Source: Pseudanabaena yagii GIHE-NHR1
Lineage (GTDB): Bacteria; Cyanobacteriota; Cyanobacteriia; Pseudanabaenales; Pseudanabaenaceae
Assembly (NCBI RefSeq): GCF_012863495.1
Contig: NZ_JAAVJL010000001.1
Location: forward strand, 62,001-126,000
DNA: 64,000 nt
Reading direction: 5' to 3'
Part shown: positions 10,274 to 42,066 of the stretch, piece by piece
How the letters are laid out: the number at the start of each line of letters is the position of its first letter
Numbering within the stretch: position 1 is the stretch's first letter
Position numbers and translations under genes: made by a program
The notes under the pieces: model-generated
What the model was told of the DNA's origin: nothing
Databases searched by the model: none
Seen by the model: the letters and a program-made list of their open reading frames with translations, nothing else

Positions 10274-10900
10274 TTAACTTTCTTTCAACTGTTTCCGAAA
10301 GTCTTCAACAATTTTCTCAAGATGTTTCTCAAAAAGAGTATATCGACGATCAGTTACGTGAAGTATTATCCAAAGAAGAATACTAAGGATCCATGGTAGT
10401 GGACTAGCAACAAGTAAAATTAGACTGCGATTCGGTGCCATAAATAGAAGGTAAGCAACACCAAAAGACAGTAAAACAGTTCTAAACCAATAACCAAATA
10501 ATCCTAATGGTGGAGATTTGTATAGAATAAACCTCCATTGAGATCTAAATCCTCGGATATTTCTATAAAAATAAAACTCATCCGTAGTATGGTTATAAAA
10601 AGCAACAAGAGCATTAAATTTTTCTTTGTCTAGTAAATTTGCACCTATTATTTCAGTGATTTTATGTCCCGGTCTAGCTAGATGCATATTTGTATTTACC
10701 AAATCTATGCTCCTTTCGATACCATCTTCAAATTGCAGCCACAATGCTTGATCAACAGTCACTGAACTACCAACAGTGGTAGTCGTCTGCTGATGGCTTA
10801 CAACAATGCCAGTTTCTGTCCAAAGTTCTACTCGACATTCCCCTCGTACAAAATGAGATGTTCTAAAGAACTTGAGGCTATCTGGAATAGAAACTTGCAT
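10274..10900 (-). CDS. Unknown protein with soluble N-terminal domain and C-terminal membrane pair
   Basis: 208 residues from ATG 10900 (an in-frame start 19 codons upstream lacks a ribosome-binding site; AAAAGGG precedes 10900). Residues 1-125 look soluble and beta-rich, with a threonine run (HQQTTTTVGSSVTV). Two probable membrane helices follow at about 140-180 (LFGYWFRTVLLSFGVAYLLFM and SLILLVASPLPWILSILLWII), then a charged helical tail with EKHLEKIVEDFRKQLKES. I cannot name the family. The next gene downstream is another small membrane protein, so they may act together. Confidence 0.65.
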   Translation of the reverse strand: MQVSIPDSLKFFRTSHFVRGECRVELWTETGIVVSHQQTTTTVGSSVTVDQALWLQFEDGIERSIDLVNTNMHLARPGHKITEIIGANLLDKEKFNALVAFYNHTTDEFYFYRNIRGFRSQWRFILYKSPPLGLFGYWFRTVLLSFGVAYLLFMAPNRSLILLVASPLPWILSILLWIILHVTDRRYTLFEKHLEKIVEDFRKQLKES

Positions 10901-11107
10901 TATGTAAGCCCTTTTACTGATGTTTAGATACTGATGCTTAGATTTGGAAGTCAGCAACGGAAAAAATTATCTAATATTTTTATATTTTGTCAAGTATTAA
11001 TTAATTAAATTATCTTGTACCAATATTACCCTTGTGAAATTCTGTGTTTTAGATTGCTATGATGATATTAATTAAGCAACGAAAAATTAAAAACGAATAA
11101 AGGGTTT

Positions 11108-12472
11108 ATGTCATCAGCGCTCAGTGTAGAAAAATTAGTCTCCGATGCCAAAGAGACCGCTAGCAAATTAGGAATTAAAAAATTTGATATTTACGGCGCG
11201 ATCGTCGATGAAACTAGCGCTGAAGTCGATAGTGGCGCACCCAAACAAGTATCCGCATCCAATCGCGCCAGCATCACCGTGCGCGTCTGGAATGATGAGG
11301 GAACTGTCGGCGTTACTTCTACCACCAATATCGATCGCGTTGGCTTAGAACTTGCACTCCAAAGCGCCCATGAAGCTAGTTTCTTTGGTGCTAAAGAAAA
11401 TATTCCTGATTTTAGTCCTGAAGCGATTGCTGATATTCCTGCACGCGAGCCACAAACTGCACCGCAAACTGCGATCGAGCAACTCGTAGAAACACTTTTG
11501 GGTGCTGAGAAGGAATTGTTAGATGCACATCCTGCGATCGCAGGGGTTCCCTATAATGGACTTTCTCAACGCGATCTCAGCCGCTTCTATCTCAATAGTG
11601 ATGGTGCAATGCGAAATGAAAGTAGTTCCTATAGCTCCATTTATCTCTATACTAAAACTGAAGAAGAAGGCAGAAAACCTCGCAGTGCAGGAGCCTATCG
11701 CATTAGCCGAGACTTTGCGAGTTTAGATGTCAAGGGTTGTGTTGAGGAAACTGCCGAGAAAACAATTAGTCATTTGAACTATGACAAAATCAAATCTGGC
11801 AAATACTTAGTCGTATTTTCTCCCGAAGCATTTCTGAGCTTGATTAGTGCGTTCTCTAGTCTCTTCAATGCCCAAAGCATTCTTGATAAAAACAGTCTCT
11901 CTACACCCGAATCGCTTGGTACTCAGATTGCCTCACCCCTGCTAGATGTGAGCGATGATGAACTCCATGTGGGTAACATTGGCGCATCCACCTTTGATGG
12001 CGAAGGAACTCCCACTCGCCGCATTCCTTTAATCGTAAATGGGATTTTAACTAATTTCCTCCATAGTTCTGTAACCGCAAAACGCTTAAATGCTCAACCG
12101 ACGGGTAATGGGAGTGTTGGCGCAAAGGTTTCCGTCAGTCCCAACTTCTTCCATATTGAGCGTAGTAAAGCTGCTAATTCTACCAATGAGAAAGTCTATG
12201 ACTTGGCAACGGTTGAGAATGTAATTTTGATTGATGATTTGCAAGCACTCCATGCGGGTGTGCAAGCATCTCAAGGTTCTTTCTCTCTGCCCTTTGATGG
12301 TTGGCTAGTGAATAAAGGCGATCGCATGAGTATCGAGGCAGCAACGGTCGCTGGTGATATTTTGGAATTGCTCAAGGCGATCGTCTATGTCGAGCCAGAG
12401 GTAAAAATTACCCCATCAGGTGTGGCTCCTCAAGTTTGGGTAGAAGGATTATCAATTACAGGTGAAGCATAA
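11108..12472 (+). CDS. TldD/PmbA (TldE) family protein
   Basis: 454 residues. In this family TldD is a zinc protease and its partner TldE/PmbA lacks the metal site; together they degrade small peptides or mature modified peptides. The conserved C-terminal half is clear: SGKYLVVFSPEAF, a FDGEGTPTRRIPLIVNGILT block near 300 and a C-terminal SITGEA. I do not see the HExxxH zinc motif of TldD, so the PmbA-like partner role is favoured. Cytoplasmic. Single gene with a clean hairpin terminator; the ATG is preceded by AAAGGG. Confidence 0.88.
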   Translation: MSSALSVEKLVSDAKETASKLGIKKFDIYGAIVDETSAEVDSGAPKQVSASNRASITVRVWNDEGTVGVTSTTNIDRVGLELALQSAHEASFFGAKENIPDFSPEAIADIPAREPQTAPQTAIEQLVETLLGAEKELLDAHPAIAGVPYNGLSQRDLSRFYLNSDGAMRNESSSYSSIYLYTKTEEEGRKPRSAGAYRISRDFASLDVKGCVEETAEKTISHLNYDKIKSGKYLVVFSPEAFLSLISAFSSLFNAQSILDKNSLSTPESLGTQIASPLLDVSDDELHVGNIGASTFDGEGTPTRRIPLIVNGILTNFLHSSVTAKRLNAQPTGNGSVGAKVSVSPNFFHIERSKAANSTNEKVYDLATVENVILIDDLQALHAGVQASQGSFSLPFDGWLVNKGDRMSIEAATVAGDILELLKAIVYVEPEVKITPSGVAPQVWVEGLSITGEA

Positions 12473-30451: not shown

Positions 30452-31858
30452 TTAGTTTCCCTGAACTTCTTTGATAACTGCCTCAACATCTATAACTTCA
30501 GCCACCCTTCCATAAATAGCCACAATAACTTCGGAAAGACTGTTACTATTAGAGTTACTAGATAGATCTTGGATAATTTGTGAAAGCATTATCTGTAATG
30601 CTTCTATAGCAGGGAACCTCCCTGTTCCAGTACCAAGTAACGGAAAAGCAATACTTCGATAATTACCATGATTGGCTTTTTCTATACAGGTGTGTATTAC
30701 TTTTTGAATAACTGGTTTAGAAAGTCTTTCTCCAGTATTCAAGTCAATAACTACTCCATGAAAGATCTTTTGAGCAGGTAGTTTTCCAGCATTAGTAACT
30801 GCAACATCTCCTAAAGATAGAGGAATCAACTTTTGTGCTTCCGAATAAATATCTCCACCTCCAACAGAGCGAAGTCTATAAGAAACACCACCTCCCATAC
30901 TTAGGTAATTATCATCTGAACTGACGATGATATCAGTTACCAGATTAGTAATTTCACCTTGATAAATTCTTATCAATCTACCATTAACAGCTAATTCCCC
31001 TATAAATAGACCTCCAAACTCATACTGATTTATCCTCTTGAAAGTTACTTTTTTGGAAAAATCTGATTGACTAATATTCTGATTCCTAAAATCTTCGATT
31101 AACTTGTGTAATTCTCTTATTTCGTCTTCTTGACGACGTAATTGTATTGTATATTCATCAATTGCTTTCTGTGCTCTTTTACTATCTTGGCGACCACGAG
31201 CCAGCTCTAACTCATTTTGAAGTGTTTGAATTAATTGATTCTTATCTTGAATTAATAGCTCTGCATCTTTCTCAGGTTCAGAATCAGAACGATCAATAGC
31301 AATTTTTAAACTTTCCAAATTTTCTCTCTGAGCTTTTAAGGCATCGCTTTGTCCCTGTAGCAATTTCTCTTCAAAAGCCACATAGGCTTTAGGGTTTTCT
31401 TGCTTTAATCTCTGTTTAGTCTCCAAAAGTTTATTTTCAGCTAGCTGCTTCTCAAGTTGTATTTGCTGTTGAAGAGGAGCAACATTAATTCCCCCAGATA
31501 CAACTTCTATAAATGAATATGATATTTGACCAAACCTATGATAACTACTATGTGGATCTAAATCTTTAGTGTTTTTCCAAATAATATATAGAGCGGTTAC
31601 ACTAATAAATAATCCCAACCATCCAATAACTACGCCAAATAAATATCCTTTAAAAAAATCATATTTCTCAGTCGCTAATAAGAACTTATCTATAATTGGG
31701 CTTATTGTGCCTCCTCCAATGACTATAATAAGTCCTCTATATCGTTGTGATTCCGAGATGTCTTTGACATCAGTTGAGGTTCGCCAACTATCAAGATAAA
31801 AAGTCATACCTGCAATCATGCCGACAAACAAAGAAATGATTGATGTTTCGGGAATCAT
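30452..31858 (-). CDS. Membrane-anchored, coiled-coil macro-domain protein
   Basis: 468 residues from ATG 31858, which has GAG nine bases upstream; a TTG eight codons earlier is less likely. Three hydrophobic segments in the first 95 residues (IISLFVGMIAGMTFYL, GLIIVIGGGTISPII, YLFGVVIGWLGLFISV), a long coiled coil of about 130 residues (EKQLAENKLLETKQRLKQEN, ELARGRQDSKRAQKAIDEYT), then a macro domain at about 295-455 (IYQGEITNLVTDIIVSSDDN, MGGGVSYRL, PLLGTGTGRFP). Macro domains bind or remove ADP-ribose or related nucleotides. The TM-coil-macro layout is not one I can assign to a described system. Confidence 0.85.
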   Translation of the reverse strand: MIPETSIISLFVGMIAGMTFYLDSWRTSTDVKDISESQRYRGLIIVIGGGTISPIIDKFLLATEKYDFFKGYLFGVVIGWLGLFISVTALYIIWKNTKDLDPHSSYHRFGQISYSFIEVVSGGINVAPLQQQIQLEKQLAENKLLETKQRLKQENPKAYVAFEEKLLQGQSDALKAQRENLESLKIAIDRSDSEPEKDAELLIQDKNQLIQTLQNELELARGRQDSKRAQKAIDEYTIQLRRQEDEIRELHKLIEDFRNQNISQSDFSKKVTFKRINQYEFGGLFIGELAVNGRLIRIYQGEITNLVTDIIVSSDDNYLSMGGGVSYRLRSVGGGDIYSEAQKLIPLSLGDVAVTNAGKLPAQKIFHGVVIDLNTGERLSKPVIQKVIHTCIEKANHGNYRSIAFPLLGTGTGRFPAIEALQIMLSQIIQDLSSNSNSNSLSEVIVAIYGRVAEVIDVEAVIKEVQGN

Positions 31859-32039
31859 AGCTATCTCGCGATAATAAAGCAAATAGTGCAGGTAGATAAG
31901 TAATCAATTCCACTTTAACAGGTTTGTCATTCAATCTCCCTATAAAGCGTAAATTTCTTATTGCTAACTGATATTCACGGGCGATCACTATAGAAAAGAT
32001 ATCACCATTCATAACACTCATTGATACTTCTTTGAAATC

Positions 32040-35122: not shown

Positions 35123-35248
35123 ATGGAAGAGAATTTCATTGCCCTTTTTATACGGTCGCCCTCCAAAAGTAGTTCCAATATCAACAGATAAAATTTGGGT
35201 TTGATATGATAGAGATCCTTGATCTTGATAGCGTTCTCAACAAACCTC

Positions 35249-37252
35249 ATGGCACTGTTCGACATTCGTACCCCTTGGCAACCTACCGCCGATCAACCCA
35301 AAGCGATCGCCCAACTGCTCGATGGTTTACAAAAAGGAATGCGTTATCAGACCCTACTGGGCGCAACGGGTACTGGTAAAACGATGACTGTCGCCAATGC
35401 GATCGCTAAATATCAAAAGCCCACTCTAGTCCTAGCCCATAACAAGACCTTGGCAGCGCAGCTATGTAATGAATTGCGCGAATTCTTTCCCAATAATGCC
35501 GTTGAATATTTCATTAGTTATTACGATTACTATCAGCCAGAGGCATATATTCCCGTTACCGATACTTATATCGAGAAGACTGCCTCGATTAATGACGAAA
35601 TCGATATGCTGCGCCACTCCGCCACGCGATCGCTGTTTGAGCGCAAAGATGTGATTGTGGTCGCCTCCGTAAGCTGCATCTATGGTTTAGGAATTCCAGA
35701 AGAATATCTTAAGGCTTCGATCCCTCTAGCCGTCGGTGTGGAATACGATCAAAGGGAATTGCTAAAAGCCTTAACTAATGTGCAGTACGAACGCAATGAT
35801 ATTGAGCTAGGTCGTGGTAAATTCCGCGTTAAGGGTGATATTTTAGAAATTGGACCTGCCTACGAAGATCGCACCATTCGCGTAGAATTTTTTGGCGATG
35901 AGATTGAAGCAATTCGCTATGTCGATCCTGTGACGGGAGAGATTTTGCAAAGTATGGAAGCTTTGAATATCTATCCTGCAAGGCACTTTGTCACCCCTGC
36001 CGATCGCTTAGAAATTGCCTGTGCCGATATTAAAGCAGAACTGGAAGAGCGTCTCGAAGAGTTAACTAATGCAGGAAAATTACTAGAGGCTCAACGTCTG
36101 GAACAGCGCACTAAGTATGATTTGGAACTATTGCAGGAAGTCGGCTTCTGTAATGGCGTGGAGAACTATTCGCGGCATCTCGCAGGACGACAAGCGGGAG
36201 AGTCGCCAGCCTGTTTAGTAGACTATTTCCCCAAGGATGATTGGTTACTGATTGTCGATGAATCTCACGTTTCCATTCCGCAAATTAGAGGGATGTATAA
36301 TGGAGATCGCGCCAGAAAAATGACCCTGATCGATCATGGCTTCCGTTTACCCAGCGCGGCGGACAATCGACCTCTCAAGGCTGATGAATTCTGGGATATG
36401 GTCAAGCAATGTATTTTTGTTTCCGCCACCCCCGGTGATTGGGAAATGGAAGTCTCAGAACAGGTAGTTGAGCAAATCATCAGACCCACAGGCGTAGTCG
36501 ATCCTGAGATTTTTGTCCGCCCAACTGAGGGACAAGTGGATGATCTTTATCATGAGATTCAATTGCGGATTAAGCGCAAGGAAAGGGTCTTAATTACAAC
36601 ACTAACTAAGAAAATGGCGGAGGACTTGACTACCTACTTTCAAGAGCGAAATCTATCGGTGCGATATCTCCATTCCGATATCAAATCTATTGAGCGGATT
36701 GAGATTTTGCAAGCTTTGCGAAAAGGGGGATTTGATGTTCTGATCGGGGTGAACTTGTTGCGAGAAGGATTAGATTTGCCTGAAGTGTCACTGGTGGCAA
36801 TTCTCGATGCAGATAAGGAAGGCTTTTTAAGAGCCGAGCGATCGCTAATTCAGACTATCGGACGGGCGGCGCGAAATGTGGCGGGACAGGTGATTATGTA
36901 TGCCGATCGCTTGACTAACAGTATGGAAAAGGCAATTTCGGAAACAGAACGTCGCCGCCGCATTCAGATTAAACATAATGAAGATAACAATATTACGCCA
37001 AGGTCAATTGTGAAGTCGATTGAAGGTAATGCGATCCTTGATTTTCTATCAGTTTCGCGCCGACTCAATGAGCGCCAGCTTGAGTATGTGGTCAATAATG
37101 CGAAGGAGATTTCTCTGGATGACATTCCCGCCATCATTGAGCAGTTGGAAGCCCAAATGAAGGATGCTGCGAAGAAGCAAGAGTTTGAGCAGGCTGCTGC
37201 TTTTCGCGACAAGATTAAGGCTTTGCGCGATCGCCTCATCGGTAAAGCGTAA
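35249..37252 (+). CDS. uvrB: Excinuclease ABC subunit B
   Basis: DNA damage recognition and loading subunit of nucleotide excision repair; works with UvrA and UvrC. 667 residues from ATG 35249; an upstream TTG ten codons earlier is rejected because [12 protein letters not shown] fits the family start. Walker A GATGTGKT, the beta-hairpin [12 protein letters not shown] that clamps the strand, motif [27 protein letters not shown], motif [12 protein letters not shown], motif [11 protein letters not shown], and the C-terminal UVR domain ([20 protein letters not shown]). Cytoplasmic. Next to the Argonaute island but itself a normal core gene. Confidence 0.97.
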
Positions 37253-37308
37253 ATCTAGAAAATTAAGATAGTATTTAGAGAAAGTGAATTTAAAACTTAG
37301 GAAAGCGT

Positions 37309-37533
37309 ATGTTTACACTTGCAGCAGCAATTGAGGTTGTTGAACAGTTACCAATAGATCAACAAGATATGTTGGTAAAAATTATTCGTAATCGTCAGAT
37401 TGAGCGTCGGCGTAATGAGATTGCTCAAAATGGACGTGAGGCGTTAGCGGCGTATCAGATTGGCGAATTAAAGTCTTACACCGCAGAAGAGGCGATCACT
37501 GAGTTACGGAATATGCTTGATTCACCAGAATAA
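37309..37533 (+). CDS. RelB-like antitoxin of a RelE-type module
   Basis: 74 residues, helical and charged (IEVVEQLPIDQQDMLVKIIR, RRNEIAQNGREALAAYQIGE). The pattern of a small charged protein starting MFTLAAAIEVVEQLP and followed within four bases by a gene starting MRKIVFSPKF is the usual antitoxin-toxin arrangement in cyanobacteria. The toxin gene is interrupted (37537-37716), so this antitoxin is now an orphan. Family membership is by pattern and context, not search. Confidence 0.75.
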   Translation: MFTLAAAIEVVEQLPIDQQDMLVKIIRNRQIERRRNEIAQNGREALAAYQIGELKSYTAEEAITELRNMLDSPE

Positions 37534-37536
37534 TCT

Positions 37537-37716
37537 ATGAGAAAGATTGTCTTTTCGCCAAAATTTGGGTGTGCTTTGCGGCGGTATGTTAAGTGAAATC
37601 CTGAACTAAGAAATCGCATATTGATGAAAGATGTCGAACAAAAAGTTGAGGCAACGGGGCAATGCCATGTCACGGAGATCGCTCAATCCTTAAAGCATAA
37701 ACCCAAGAAATCATGA
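37537..37716 (+). pseudogene. RelE/StbE-type toxin, broken by an in-frame stop and truncated
   Basis: Starts MRKIVFSPKFGCALRRYVK, then TGA at 37594-37596, then continues NPELRNRIL in the same frame. Intact relatives usually read RYVKRNPEL, so a CGA to TGA change in one arginine codon explains the stop. After RIL the sequence no longer matches toxins and ends in a chance frame at 37716. The gene is therefore non-functional. Confidence 0.8.
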
Positions 37717-37795
37717 ATTTAATCTATATGTTTTATGCTAAAATCACTGAAATCATAACCTTACTGAGTTTATAAGCCATTTTTCGTAATTACTA

Positions 37796-39889
37796 ATGAC
37801 AACATTTATAGAAGTTTTTCCTATTAATCTTTCTGCATTGCCAATACTTTATGCTTACAAGTTGATAATAGGGAATAACGATATGTCCACTATTGGATGG
37901 AAATTTGCATATAGATTAAGGGCTGAATTGGGGGGGCATTGGGTATGGAGTGAAAGCAAGATTGTTGGAGATAAGTTAGTATCCGAACTCGAAATTAAAA
38001 ATATTGTAGAAGTCCTTTGGCAAGAGCAGCCCGAAGTTTATAGGAATTTGCAAGGATTGAAGCGAGATATAGATTTTGCAATCACACCTCAATCCCAAGC
38101 AGATTTTGTGGCTTTTGGTTTGTTCTCAGATATTCAAAGAGAAATCAAGTTGAAGCTATCTCAGAAGAATCACGATCTTGGCAGAGCTAAAATAGAGAGA
38201 ACTTATGGTGTAAAAGCATGGGTAGTCAATGACCATCCATCGATCTCTATTTCGGTTCAATCAAATTTAATCTACAAAGAAGATTTCAAGACCTATGCAG
38301 CGAAAGTTGCTGACCCTAATCAGCTATTAGGAATAATGGTTGAAGATAAGGGATCTAGCTTAAAAGATGAAATTGTCGCCATAACAGGGCGGCTGATTGA
38401 CCACAGAACGAGGCTTTTGAGCTTAACAAAAAAAGATGAATCAAAAGCTCTGATTAATAATGCACCTGATGATGAATTAGTTGTTTCTGTCGGGAAATCT
38501 CGTTACGACTACATTGCGAGTGCATTAAAGATTGTTCTTCGGTTGGCAGACTGTCAGCGCTTTGGGGTAGACTCCCAGAAAGCGTTAAATATTTTAAAAA
38601 TAGAACCTAAGTTGCGTTCCGATATAATAAGCTCTATCGCTGAAATTGCTAAAAAACAAAATTTTATTCAAAATGCTTACACTTCTGGGAAAAATACAAA
38701 TTTGTTCTTGAGTTCTGAAAGCATCGGATTTAGCTCAAATCTTTGTTTTGGCAATGCCAAAATCGGCAAGCATAATGAGATGTTGAGTAGCTTAAAACTA
38801 TATGGTGTATATAGGAGAGCAAAAAATTTTTCTGAAAATAACCCAATTTATATTGGTATTATTAAAGGTGCTAAGACAGAGAGTTTAGAAAAATTCTGTC
38901 CCGCGTTGCAAGAAGAACTAAGCAAATTAAAATTCAAGTCTGAGTACGTCGGATTAAAGAATATCCAAGAAGATTCAAGGATAAAAATAGAAGAAGCTAT
39001 TAATATCTTGATGCAGAAAGAAAAACAGCCAGATATCATACTAGCTTTTTTTAATGATAACTCTGAAGAAGAGGGTAGTGCGTACGATAAATTTAAATCT
39101 ATAACTATCGGTCGAGGTATACCTAGTCAGTATATTGAAAAATCAACAACTACCAATACTTTCGCATTAGGTAATATAGCTTTGGGGATTTTAGGAAAAA
39201 CAGGCAATACCCCTTTTGCTTTAGCTGAACCATTACCTTATGCTGATTTAGTAATTGGTCTTGATGTTGCTCGTCAAAAAAAGCAAAATCTGGCAGGAAG
39301 CCTCAATGCTACTGCTATAGCCCGTATTTACTTTAGCAATGGAGATCTACTAAGATATCGCATCCATGATGCTCCACTAGAAGGAGAAACGATTCCACAA
39401 AATGTATTACAAAGTTTATTCCCTATCGATGAGTTTCAGGGAAAAAGAGTAGTTATTCATAGAGATGGCTTATTTCGTGGCAAAGAGAAACAGGTTCTAA
39501 AATCATGGGCTAAACAAATTGGTGCAGAATTTTATCTGGTTGAAGTAATTAAAGATGCCGTACCAAGAATTTATTCCTTCACTAATGGAGAAGTGAAACA
39601 ACCAGCTAAAGGTGATGTTTTTAAATTAAGTGATACTCAAGCTTTTTTAGTCTCGTCATTGCCCCCATTTAAAAATTCCACTCCTCAACCTTTGCAAATT
39701 CGTACAGAAGCCCCTTTTACAATTGAGCAAGCTGTCCACTCCGTTTTATCGCTCACACTTTTGCACTATGGTTCACTTAGGGGGACAAGATCTCCAGTCA
39801 GTATTCACTTTAGTGACAAAATCGGTGGTTTAGTTTTGAAAGGAATTAAACCTAAAGATTTAGAGGGAACTATCCCTTATTGGTTATAA
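37796..39889 (+). CDS. ago: Long prokaryotic Argonaute with predicted catalytic PIWI domain
   Basis: 697 residues. Prokaryotic Argonautes use short nucleic-acid guides to find and often cut invading DNA. The N-terminal half (1-330) holds N and PAZ-like regions; the MID domain at about 340-470 has YDKFKSITIGRGIPSQYI, where Y430, K434 and Q445 fit the guide 5'-phosphate pocket. The PIWI domain runs about 480-697. Candidate catalytic residues: D490 (VIGLDVAR), E529 or E531 (PLEGETIP, the glutamate finger), D557 (IHRDGLF) and D674 (IHFSDKIGG). The D-D-D spacings (67 and 117) are close to those of Thermus TtAgo (68 and 114). No helicase or nuclease partner is adjacent, as for the stand-alone cyanobacterial Agos. 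No clear ribosome-binding site; the region looks AT-richer than neighbouring genes. Confidence 0.95.
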   Translation: MTTFIEVFPINLSALPILYAYKLIIGNNDMSTIGWKFAYRLRAELGGHWVWSESKIVGDKLVSELEIKNIVEVLWQEQPEVYRNLQGLKRDIDFAITPQSQADFVAFGLFSDIQREIKLKLSQKNHDLGRAKIERTYGVKAWVVNDHPSISISVQSNLIYKEDFKTYAAKVADPNQLLGIMVEDKGSSLKDEIVAITGRLIDHRTRLLSLTKKDESKALINNAPDDELVVSVGKSRYDYIASALKIVLRLADCQRFGVDSQKALNILKIEPKLRSDIISSIAEIAKKQNFIQNAYTSGKNTNLFLSSESIGFSSNLCFGNAKIGKHNEMLSSLKLYGVYRRAKNFSENNPIYIGIIKGAKTESLEKFCPALQEELSKLKFKSEYVGLKNIQEDSRIKIEEAINILMQKEKQPDIILAFFNDNSEEEGSAYDKFKSITIGRGIPSQYIEKSTTTNTFALGNIALGILGKTGNTPFALAEPLPYADLVIGLDVARQKKQNLAGSLNATAIARIYFSNGDLLRYRIHDAPLEGETIPQNVLQSLFPIDEFQGKRVVIHRDGLFRGKEKQVLKSWAKQIGAEFYLVEVIKDAVPRIYSFTNGEVKQPAKGDVFKLSDTQAFLVSSLPPFKNSTPQPLQIRTEAPFTIEQAVHSVLSLTLLHYGSLRGTRSPVSIHFSDKIGGLVLKGIKPKDLEGTIPYWL

Positions 39890-39957
39890 GGTTATCGTAA
39901 TCAAGAAATGAGTAGACACGAAGCAAGATTTTTATCAGATTAGATTAGAGGTAGATC

Positions 39958-40182
39958 ATGGAAACTATTAGTATTGAAGTTGAGCCAGAAATTGCCAGAG
40001 CCTATCAAGAGGCAAACTTGATGGAACGCAAAAAAATGCAAATCATCCTCAATAGTTCGCTCAAACAATTTGTGCGTAAGCTATCTTTGGAAGACACCAT
40101 TCAAGAAATGCAAACACAAGCCAAAGCCAACGGACTAAACCAAGAGATCCTGAATAAAATTTTGAATGAAGACTATGACTAA
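39958..40182 (+). CDS. Antitoxin of a PIN-toxin module (toxin lost)
   Basis: 74 residues, acidic and helical (METISIEVEPEIARAYQEAN, QFVRKLSLEDTIQEMQTQAK). Its stop overlaps the ATG at 40175 of a frame that begins MTKPRFVINANI, the start of a PIN-type toxin; the overlap is the usual coupling of these modules. The toxin has been truncated, so the antitoxin stands alone. It starts 68 bases after the Argonaute stop. Confidence 0.75.
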   Translation: METISIEVEPEIARAYQEANLMERKKMQIILNSSLKQFVRKLSLEDTIQEMQTQAKANGLNQEILNKILNEDYD

Positions 40183-40210
40183 ACCTAGATTTGTCATAAA
40201 TGCAAATATC
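40175..40210 (+). pseudogene. N-terminal remnant of a PIN-family toxin
   Basis: Twelve codons MTKPRFVINANI match the start of PIN toxins (MTKPRFVIDTNV-like) but the first catalytic aspartate position is N here. After this point the frame runs straight into the DUF2281 gene. Confidence 0.6.
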
Positions 40211-40225
40211 CAAGAGAACAAACAA

Positions 40226-40441
40226 ATGACTACCAGAGAAAAACTTATTCAAGAAATCTCCCACGTTCCTGAAGAACTAGTAGAAGAGCTTTTTGACTTC
40301 TTGCTATTCACACAAACTCGCAGACAACAAAATAAAACCTTAAAAGAACCAAGACCCTATGCCCTCTGTGCTGGCGAATTTACTGTTCCTCAAAACTTTG
40401 ACGACCCTTTACCAGAAGATATCTTAAAAGACTTTGAATAG
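40226..40441 (+). CDS. DUF2281 protein, antitoxin of the VapC pair
   Basis: 71 residues from ATG 40226. N-terminal TREKLIQEISHVPEELVEEL and a FDFLLFTQTRR segment are typical of DUF2281, a family found as VapB-like partners of PIN toxins. The C-terminal part (RPYALCAGEFTVPQNFDDPL) ends in the PED motif common in these antitoxins. Twelve bases separate it from the VapC gene. The longer frame from 40166 fuses it to the broken PIN start and is not the native start. Confidence 0.82.
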   Translation: MTTREKLIQEISHVPEELVEELFDFLLFTQTRRQQNKTLKEPRPYALCAGEFTVPQNFDDPLPEDILKDFE

Positions 40442-40453
40442 AATAGACAAATT

Positions 40454-40843
40454 ATGCGATTGCTTCTTGACACACATATTTTTCTTTGGTTTCTTAATGG
40501 AGATCCTCAACTTTCTTCACAGTTTCGCGACTACATCCAAGACCCCAATAACAATGTCTACCTGAGCGTTGTATCTGTTTGGGAAGCCACAATTAAATAT
40601 CAACTTGGTAAACTTCCTTTCCCAGAATCCCCTGCAACATATTTACCAAGACAACGTATTCGACATCAAATCGATAGCCTACAAATTGACGAAGCTAGTA
40701 TTACACAACTAATTCGATTACCACCTTTACATAGAGATCCCTTTGATCGACTTTTAATTTGTCAATCTATTCAGCATAATTTAACGATAGTGACTGCCGA
40801 TCAAGCGATCATTAACTATCCAATAGTTCAAATTCTAAAATGA
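40454..40843 (+). CDS. VapC-like PIN-domain toxin
   Basis: 129 residues, full PIN domain: MRLLLDTHIFLWFLNGDPQL with D6 of the first acidic motif, SVVSVWEATIKYQLGKL with the conserved glutamate, and HRDPFDRLLICQSIQHNLTIVTAD with the C-terminal acidic residues. PIN toxins of this class cleave tRNA or other RNA; this target is unknown. Paired with the DUF2281 gene just upstream. It seems intact. Confidence 0.9.
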   Translation: MRLLLDTHIFLWFLNGDPQLSSQFRDYIQDPNNNVYLSVVSVWEATIKYQLGKLPFPESPATYLPRQRIRHQIDSLQIDEASITQLIRLPPLHRDPFDRLLICQSIQHNLTIVTADQAIINYPIVQILK

Positions 40844-40901
40844 TAATTTATAACAATCACTTGCTCGTTTAACTTTACAGCGAAGCGCAATCGCATTATC
40901 C

Positions 40902-41036
40902 ACAGATGTAGTCATATATCTGTATGTTGTAAATGGCAAAGCCGATTATTTGATTACAGGCGATCATTATTCTCCTAAATCATATCTAGGCGCTAACTCT
41001 TGCATTCATGAATTTAAAATCTTCTTCCCCATCTTT
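40902..41036 (+). pseudogene. C-terminal remnant of a PIN-family toxin
   Basis: In frame at 40929 the sequence reads VNGKADYLITGD, the characteristic C-terminal block of PIN toxins (GKADYLVTGD), without any start codon or body. It is in the 164-base gap after VapC and overlaps the start of the DUF3326 gene. It may be the other half of the toxin whose start lies at 40175. Confidence 0.5.
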
Positions 41037-42066
41037 TAATGTCTTACTACTAGTGCCTACTGGCATTAATGCCGCTATTGGTGGCTATGCAGGTGATGCT
41101 TTGCCAGTGGCGAGAGCGATCGCCTCAATAGCGGATAACGTAATCACCCATCCCAATGTCTTAAACGGCGCAAGTTTATATTGGTCAATGCCAAATGTGT
41201 TATACACCGAGGGATATGCCCTTGATCGCATGGCAAAGGATGACTGGGGACTGCGTGCGGTCAGATCTAATCGCATAGGTATAATTCTCGATCGCGGTAT
41301 GAAATCAGACTTAGAATTACGTCACCGTCAAGCGATTGCGGCGGCACAAGCGACATTAGGATTGAATATTAGCGATGTATTAGTGACCGATCGCGATCTG
41401 GGTGTGGAATTGAGATCGGGGGAGTCGGGCGCGACATGGGGAACGATCGCCAATCTCGATAGTTTACTCAGAGCCGCCGAGAAATTGATTAAAGTTTCTC
41501 AAGTAGAAGCGATCGCAGTAGTCGCCAGATTTCCCGATGATCCTGATAGCGAGGCATTACAAAACTATCGCCAAGGCAAAGGGGTGGATGCTCTCGCAGG
41601 AGCCGAAGCCGTAATTAGTCATGCGATCGTGCGCGAATTTGCCATACCTTGCGCCCATGCCCCTGCCTTACAACCATTACCACTCGATCCAAGCGTTTCG
41701 CCCCGTGCGGCGGCTGAGGAACTAGGTTATACATTTCTGCCCTGTGTATTAGTCGGATTAAGTCGCGCCCCGAAAATCATTACCAATCGCAATCTGCTTA
41801 AGCCTGATGATATTACGGCTGATGATATCAATGCGATCGTTACGCCTTACAGTGCTTGCGGTGGTGCGGGTTTATTAGCACTTAATCCATTACCCCATGT
41901 CCAAACTATTTTTGTGAAGGAAAATCAAACGGCGCTAGAAGTTACCCCTGAGATATTGGGATTAAAAGGTGTTGTAGTTGAAAATTATTGGGAAGCGATC
42001 GGGGTTTTAACCGCAATGAAAGCAGGAATTAATCCTCGCAGCTTACGAAATTACCCAAACCTATAA
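41008..42066 (+). CDS. DUF3326 family protein
   Basis: 352 residues, conserved in cyanobacteria and plant plastids, function unknown. Landmarks: LLVPTGINAAIGGYAGDALP, ASLYWSMPNVLYTEGYALDR, GKGVDALAGAEAVISHAIVR, PCAHAPALQPLPLDP and VTPYSACGGAGLLAL. Soluble with probable nucleotide- or sugar-handling fold, but this is not established. Its last codons (NYPNL and stop) lie inside the left arm of the palindrome 42050-42108, so the C-terminus may have been changed by that element. The ATG overlaps the end of the PIN remnant. Confidence 0.92.
   Translation: MNLKSSSPSFNVLLLVPTGINAAIGGYAGDALPVARAIASIADNVITHPNVLNGASLYWSMPNVLYTEGYALDRMAKDDWGLRAVRSNRIGIILDRGMKSDLELRHRQAIAAAQATLGLNISDVLVTDRDLGVELRSGESGATWGTIANLDSLLRAAEKLIKVSQVEAIAVVARFPDDPDSEALQNYRQGKGVDALAGAEAVISHAIVREFAIPCAHAPALQPLPLDPSVSPRAAAEELGYTFLPCVLVGLSRAPKIITNRNLLKPDDITADDINAIVTPYSACGGAGLLALNPLPHVQTIFVKENQTALEVTPEILGLKGVVVENYWEAIGVLTAMKAGINPRSLRNYPNL

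Follow-up and report, generated by a model that had tools for sequence, protein, structure and literature searches.

A predicted slicing long-A Argonaute of Pseudanabaena yagii and the variable slot behind uvrB in which it lies

Why does Pseudanabaena yagii GIHE-NHR1 carry a gene for a long prokaryotic Argonaute (Ago), and would its product cut nucleic acid without a partner? The gene lies in a stretch of 64,000 nucleotides (contig NZ_JAAVJL010000001.1, positions 62,001 to 126,000; called the window below), part of a 3.69 Mb contig in a 5.57 Mb genome, and an earlier note had described it as a stand-alone Argonaute with an apparently complete catalytic tetrad. Comparison with its relatives leads us to an answer to which we give a probability of roughly three in four: Ago would be a catalytically competent long-A Argonaute, a guide-directed nuclease held as accessory defence cargo in a slot after uvrB. 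Coordinates are those of the window and refer to its + strand unless marked otherwise.

The open reading frame (ORF) was found exactly where the earlier note had placed it (37796..39889, ATG start, 697 amino acids) and is intact. In the profile searches which that note had proposed, its product matched Pfam Piwi (E 1.7e-12) and, across residues 2-697, the PADLOC pAgo model (818.6 bits); the pAgo_II model also matched, and the protein was the sole Piwi-family match of the assembly. The best matches in the PDB were 9iad (272 bits) and AaAgo of Aquifex aeolicus (1yvu, 135 bits). A profile built from 11 members of the clade described below reached AaAgo with 208 bits, and CbAgo and CpAgo with 136-150 bits over profile positions 125-680; some of the solved AaAgo and CbAgo/CpAgo chains used for alignment carry engineered changes. 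On these matches, and on its grouping with AaAgo and CpAgo in a tree, Ago is classed as a long-A prokaryotic Argonaute with MID and PIWI domains.

The residues needed for cutting and for guide binding were located by alignment, with numbering of Ago and AaAgo counted from the alignments. D490 (39263..39265), the glutamate finger E531 (39386..39388), D557 (39464..39466) and D674 (39815..39817) align with AaAgo D502, E541, D571 and D683, and the MID residues Y430, K434, Q445 and K468 with Y439, K443, Q454 and K480. None of the eight varies among the 11 clade members, the first of which is 37-93% identical to the rest, and no substitution was seen in any tetrad. The three aspartates and the pocket residues Y430, K434 and Q445 named before were thus recovered, with K468 completing the motif. 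The glutamate had been left double, as E529 or E531; in a wider alignment (L001, L005, L006 (duplicates), L011, L032, L025 and L027 set aside) every row has E at position 531, while position 529 varies (E, D, F, P or a gap), so that E531 stands and E529 falls. By alignment the DEDD tetrad is complete and the MID motif follows the canonical pattern (Y/R, K, Q, K), in its YK form. The tetrad spacing, which the earlier note had called close to that of TtAgo, is 41/26/117 in Ago, nearer to the 39/30/112 of AaAgo than to the 34/34/114 of TtAgo. The YK-type motif has been tied to 5'-phosphate guides, and a preference for DNA or RNA is said not to be predictable from sequence (PMC6299218).

The relationships of Ago were determined in a tree of MID-PIWI regions with 44 rows, built without L018, L037 and fragments. 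Ago grouped with other Pseudanabaena Agos and with proteins of five other cyanobacterial families (support 94/87, a node not starred). The clade holding 9iad was sister to this Pseudanabaena-type clade (100/99; both together 98/94), AaAgo fell outside both, and the SeAgo-like group lay far off; AaAgo, CpAgo, L049 and L010 have long branches. The likeness to TtAgo suggested by the earlier note was not borne out by this topology, in which Ago is neither TtAgo- nor SeAgo-like and lies beside the 9iad/ChAgo-type Agos and then AaAgo.

The two sister clades differ in what stands next to ago. A PD-(D/E)XK nuclease gene adjoins it in all 19 sister-clade loci (L012-L015 and L036-L050, L037 being assigned by similarity since it is absent from the tree) and in none of the 11 loci of the Pseudanabaena-type clade. 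The copy at L064 matched Pfam PDDEXK_1 (E 9.2e-13). A homologue of this nuclease was detected in one of 26 genomes of the genus, the one with a sister-clade Ago, and none was found in the window genome at E 1e-5. The SeAgo-like and other loci L016-L031 gave 0/16, a count not used because the test spans little upstream DNA there. The statement that Ago has no nuclease partner therefore stands, on the contrast of 19/19 with 0/11, and so does the lack of a dedicated helicase, Sir2 or TIR gene; what the claim of no partner missed are the toxin-antitoxin (TA) genes described below.

Other class assignments were considered and rejected. Ago is not a nuclease-paired Argonaute like 9iad/ChAgo, as it branches outside that clade and no PD-(D/E)XK gene is adjacent, nor does it branch with the SeAgo-like proteins of the TtAgo/SeAgo group, which have R at MID 434. 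A short pAgo, SPARTA, SPARSA or long-B assignment is contradicted by the complete tetrad and by the lack of a TIR, Sir2, Mrr or APAZ partner among the adjacent genes. A haloarchaeal Ago-PLD (APAP) system, which has an adjacent PLD-family gene (PMC11442185), was also dismissed, no such gene being present among the adjacent genes scanned.

Several features of the relatives were recorded alongside. In 12 of the 19 sister-clade loci Y or S stands in place of the MID lysine, L036 and L039 have DEDH instead of DEDD, and L037 (G190:C2) has an internal TGA and an open frame that ends before the last catalytic residue. L011 and L032 (G034) are one Ago of the Pseudanabaena-type clade split across two contigs. 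An occasional association of active long-A Agos with Cas4-like genes was already known (PMC10653904).

An orthologue of Ago was found in five of the 26 Pseudanabaena genomes and was absent from the other 21; four further genomes have a different Ago (G001, G004, G007 and G013), while a Pfam Piwi search of the genus missed G013 and added a partial match in G023. The ratio of non-synonymous to synonymous divergence (dN/dS) of ago was 0.11-0.16 in all ten pairs among the five orthologues, a sign of purifying selection that supports a function. No Ago was found in G002, the nearest relative searched, which matches the window at about 100% identity in both UvrB and MurA. Synonymous divergence (dS) between the window and G011 was 1.39 for uvrB, 1.73 for murA and 1.95 for the DUF3326 gene, compared with 0.54 for ago; between the window and G012 the values were 1.24, 0.76 and 0.62, compared with 1.29 for ago. 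G011 is thus the more distant of the two in all three core genes and the order is reversed for ago, with the caveats that values above 1 are near saturation, that the uvrB difference is small and that only three core genes were compared. Since the order of ago divergence contradicts that of the core genes and the nearest relative lacks Ago, the gene has probably been exchanged horizontally within the genus.

Phage and plasmid origins were discarded. One scan of viral contigs gave no relative and one phage record gave a partial match at 29%; the matches among plasmids, 14 records in all, were distant, and each spanned less than 80% of the query. The phage record, MT835890.1, is an unannotated 15.8 kb entry from human faecal samples with a PIWI-like stretch at 10573-11433 (29% identity over 39% of the query).

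The gene 5' of ago is uvrB (35219..37252), which we take to be such from the sequence of its product and read as a fixed housekeeping gene at whose 3' end a variable slot begins. It has a high-identity match in 25 of the 26 Pseudanabaena genomes, and in two of these the match is fragmented or truncated. The DNA downstream of it was surveyed in 24 genomes (G009 and G016 had no usable uvrB), in three of which it could be read as far as a contig end close by. Ago follows uvrB in the window genome and in G021. Elsewhere the place is taken by an antitoxin-like gene, C1, alone (G005) or with its toxin gene C2 and PtuA (G008); by HigB, a neighbouring ORF and PtuA (G017) or PtuA-PtuB (G020); by a HigA-like ORF and a caspase-like gene (G022); by an antitoxin-like ORF and a PIN_3 toxin (G003); or by a second antitoxin-like gene, C7, with a YafQ toxin, alone (G002, G012) or with RmrA-/QatC-like genes that may be ordinary regulators or enzymes (G024). 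The name antitoxin-like is given to C1, C7 and the HigA-like ORFs, none of which has a Pfam match above cut-off, because toxin-family genes lie next to them. The G020 locus (L106) has a HigB-like toxin that also matches PADLOC PD-Lambda-2_A, a HigA-like ORF, PtuA and PtuB, that is, Septu behind a TA pair.

A TA-type gene was present within 700 bp after uvrB in 10 of 21 genomes, compared with 2 of 22 after murA and 1 of 19 after the DUF3326 gene, in counts scored by eye, not blind, with partial Pfam support and among related genomes (G005, G007 and G019 were left out of the uvrB count, and G004 out of the DUF3326 control, at contig ends). No such gene was recognized within this distance in G001, G004, G006, G010, G011, G013, G014, G015, G018, G023 and G025. 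Pieces of the uvrB 3' end recurred downstream in 6 of the 24 genomes, strongly in G012 (112 bp, 91%) and G003 (136 bp, 77%) but over no more than 23 bp in G021 and 37 bp in G008; such a copy was seen in 4 of 173 control stretches, and a single duplicated region of G002 accounts for two of these four. Directly 5' of ago the window has a degenerate copy (37677..37716), 82.5% identical over 40 bases to the uvrB end of G002, although the window's own uvrB tail finds no copy of itself there. Clearer copies stand upstream of Ago in G021 (23 bp) and in G011, where Ago and uvrB are on different contigs and yet 35 bp of the uvrB end lie just 5' of Ago. The G012 locus reads uvrB, C7, YafQ, uvrB tail and C1 fragment, and looks like the matching site without Ago. 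These findings fit a slot after uvrB into which cassettes would be exchanged. UvrB itself was rejected as a partner of Ago, uvrB being followed by many different things and the two genes lying on separate contigs in three of the five genomes (G008, G011 and G012).

A more specific mechanism can be offered only tentatively, and we hold it somewhat below an even chance. Small defence cassettes may land repeatedly at the uvrB 3' end, their arrival carrying in or duplicating part of the uvrB tail; TA pairs (C7-YafQ, C1-PIN, and HigB with the ORF beside it) would form the entry layer and perhaps a recombination handle, and the payloads (Ago, Septu, caspase-like and RmrA/QatC-like genes) would be swapped among these pairs, with orphan antitoxins frequently left behind as scars. 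Such a mechanism would be unusual, because no integrase was recognized by eye among the ORFs after uvrB, where transposase-like ORFs are present. Defence genes, those of TA systems among them, are known as a statistical trend to be enriched around pAgos (PMC2743648), and a text search surfaced nothing on uvrB as a defence or integration hotspot among 20 of 276 matching papers.

From these comparisons we infer the activity, guide type, target type and defence role of Ago as follows. Ago would load a short 5'-phosphate guide, most likely DNA, in the MID pocket, and, with no partner nuclease dedicated to it, would use the tetrad D490/E531/D557/D674 to cut nucleic acid complementary to the guide, most probably DNA that is invading or multicopy. 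The gene would be accessory defence cargo exchanged between Pseudanabaena strains, together with TA genes, in the slot after uvrB. The defence role claimed before gains support from the location, the patchy distribution and the signs of horizontal exchange. A cyanobacterial precedent is SeAgo, which lowers transformation and the maintenance of an RSF1010 plasmid in its own host (PMC10653904).

Several points weigh against this reading. Pfam finds no PAZ domain in Ago; the CbAgo/CpAgo profile alignment (125-680) spans the stretch where PAZ and L2 would be expected. A structure prediction from three input sequences gave a mean predicted local distance difference test (pLDDT) of 35 and a predicted template modelling score (pTM) of 0.25, and nothing was drawn from it. 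The dS of ago in G021 (0.25) is inside the core range (0.21-0.61) and that in G008 (0.77) is little below it (0.92-2.03), so that neither shows a clear conflict with the core genes. In E. coli 78-95% of the guides of SeAgo and LrAgo are chromosomal, with peaks at ter sites, which leaves room for a role in replication, plasmid DNA being enriched 3- to 14-fold (PMC10269773). ChAgo, which is placed with the sister type, also cuts RNA, so the target type could differ (PMC11817465).

The strongest alternative, still an unlikely one, is that Ago actively slices but works chiefly on the chromosome, in finishing replication or at gyrase-linked breaks as proposed for TtAgo, with defence secondary. The ter-site guides of SeAgo and LrAgo and the aid that both give to ciprofloxacin-treated E. 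coli (PMC10269773) speak for it, as does the repair gene uvrB adjoining ago. On the other hand, SeAgo does not protect its own host against ciprofloxacin (PMC10269773), the divergence of ago conflicts with that of the core genes, and the slot after uvrB is used by unrelated defence genes. As the gene is patchy, seemingly exchanged and absent from the nearest relative, Ago is unlikely to be a housekeeping factor, and the idea of replication decatenation put forward in the earlier note gained nothing from an orthologue that 21 of the 26 genomes lack.

The genes around ago raise a further alternative. Upstream lie C7 (37309..37533), an intact antitoxin-like ORF of 74 amino acids with no Pfam match above cut-off, and the remnant of a YafQ-like toxin (37534..37640) which, compared with intact copies, has an internal stop and is truncated; in G002, G012 and G024 the C7 ORF is followed by an 88-amino-acid ORF, of which the G002 copy matches Pfam YafQ_toxin. 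Downstream, 68 bp after ago, is C1 (39958..40182; 74 amino acids, no Pfam or NCBIfam match above cut-off), so that orphan antitoxin-like genes stand on both sides of Ago. Of C2, a PIN_3 toxin gene cognate to C1 and intact in L052, L062 and L097, about 11 codons are left at the start (40175..40207), where a second TA pair interrupts the gene. This pair has a DUF2281-like antitoxin ORF (40166..40441; E 2.3e-5, just under cut-off), whose own start is probably an internal ATG after the C2 remnant, and a toxin with a PIN domain, which is of RNase type (40454..40843; E 5.9e-12). A 13-residue tail remnant of a C2-type PIN_3 toxin follows (40929..40967; 13/13 identical to the L051 copy). The region 40166-40967 is thus a TA pair within the remains of another, with the first antitoxin-like gene intact. 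Promoter and terminator scans of 37200-41100 gave results at or below chance level.

Ago and the small downstream gene or genes might accordingly be read as one unit in which a PIN-type TA pair guards Ago, loss or inhibition of Ago freeing the toxin and stopping growth; we rate this as improbable, behind the chromosomal role. C1 (73-74 amino acids) follows Ago at 61-70 bp on the same strand in the window, L051, L052 and L062, four of the five orthologues within the genus (L061 is the exception), in at least two different contexts, and its dN/dS of 0.05-0.31 speaks for purifying selection in most comparisons. A complete pair follows Ago in L052 and L062, where C1 and the beginning of an intact C2 overlap, and in L051 (G021) another pair, C1'-C2', survives intact some 2 kb beyond Ago; a C2-type copy in L051 matched PIN_3 (2.4e-22) and TIGR00305 (2.1e-27). 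The C2 next to Ago is nevertheless destroyed in the window and in G021, in both by the DUF2281-like/PIN pair, and Ago of G008 has no C1, its C1-C2 pair standing after uvrB on another contig. Close homologues of C1 (63% identity or more) were found in 10 genus genomes and lie beside Ago in only 4, and no such pair was seen in the clade neighbourhoods read from seven genomes outside the genus. Judged by this distribution, C1 is not tied to Ago, and "stand-alone", as the earlier note had it, needs the qualifier that an antitoxin-like gene follows Ago in four of the five genomes.

Least probable of all is a non-cutting Ago with an intact tetrad, binding guide and target only or working through an unlinked effector: cutting is predicted from sequence and the model reached a mean pLDDT of only 35, but tetrad and pocket are invariant down to 37% identity, purifying selection acts within the genus, and ChAgo, with near-equal DEDD spacing, cleaves DNA and RNA while its tetrad mutants do not (PMC11817465).

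Farther upstream the window encodes a Macro-domain protein of 476 amino acids (30452-31882, - strand; Pfam Macro 1.6e-18), with apparent membrane segments at its N-terminal start and a weak likeness to the macro domain of Thoeris ThsA (E 0.0019, below cut-off).

In a survey of 2023 the cyanobacterial Agos predicted to be active all fell into a single cluster with TtAgo, and the only ones from filamentous cyanobacteria were two metagenome-derived sequences (PMC10653904). A full-tetrad Ago is now seen in five Pseudanabaena genomes, of which one is that of strain UWO311 (L003) and a second, a metagenome bin, may be one of the survey's two; the close Pseudanabaena relatives include L003 and isolate ULC187bin1 (L002). 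A Pseudanabaena-type clade with full DEDD near 9iad and AaAgo does not fit easily into the one-cluster picture, the survey tree being based on 179 positions. Neither of the two papers found to name both Pseudanabaena and Argonaute treats the present gene, judged by titles and abstract starts. The Ago protein itself is of a known type, and the slot after uvrB is the fresher part of the results, a place to seek further defence genes and to study the exchange of cassettes. The two sister clades, with a nuclease gene in 19/19 and 0/11 loci, amount to a natural experiment on the partner nuclease of a slicing Argonaute.

Among the characterized Argonautes, SeAgo of Synechococcus elongatus, which we take to be L028, resembles Ago as a cyanobacterial DEDD long-A slicer, but the SeAgo/TtAgo group lies on another branch, with R at MID 434, a gap at 430 and about 25% identity over 432-675. 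LrAgo of Limnothrix rosea, a DNA-guided DNA nuclease, may be L035 (37% identical to Ago, with D516 and D583, which would be the residues of LrAgo); if so, it may belong to the same clade at about 37% identity, and its context differs. LrAgo is reported as the nearest neighbour of ChAgo, at 29% (PMC11817465).

ChAgo of Chroococcidiopsis, with the tetrad D533/E575/D600/D721, cuts DNA, and RNA less well, using DNA guides (PMC11817465). Its spacing of 42/25/121 is close to the 41/26/117 of Ago, and its residue numbering would place it with the 9iad type. The PDB entry 9iad ("Protein argonaute", 745 amino acids) is the best solved relative of Ago by bit score. The 9iad/ChAgo type differs from Ago as a sister clade with open frames of about 740-790 amino acids, a MID lysine often replaced by Y or S and a nuclease gene beside Ago. 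AaAgo, from a hyperthermophile, differs by its low identity and its long branch, and yet its DEDD tetrad and YK..Q..K pocket match Ago residue for residue across Ago residues 232-697, in a protein of 706 amino acids compared with 697.

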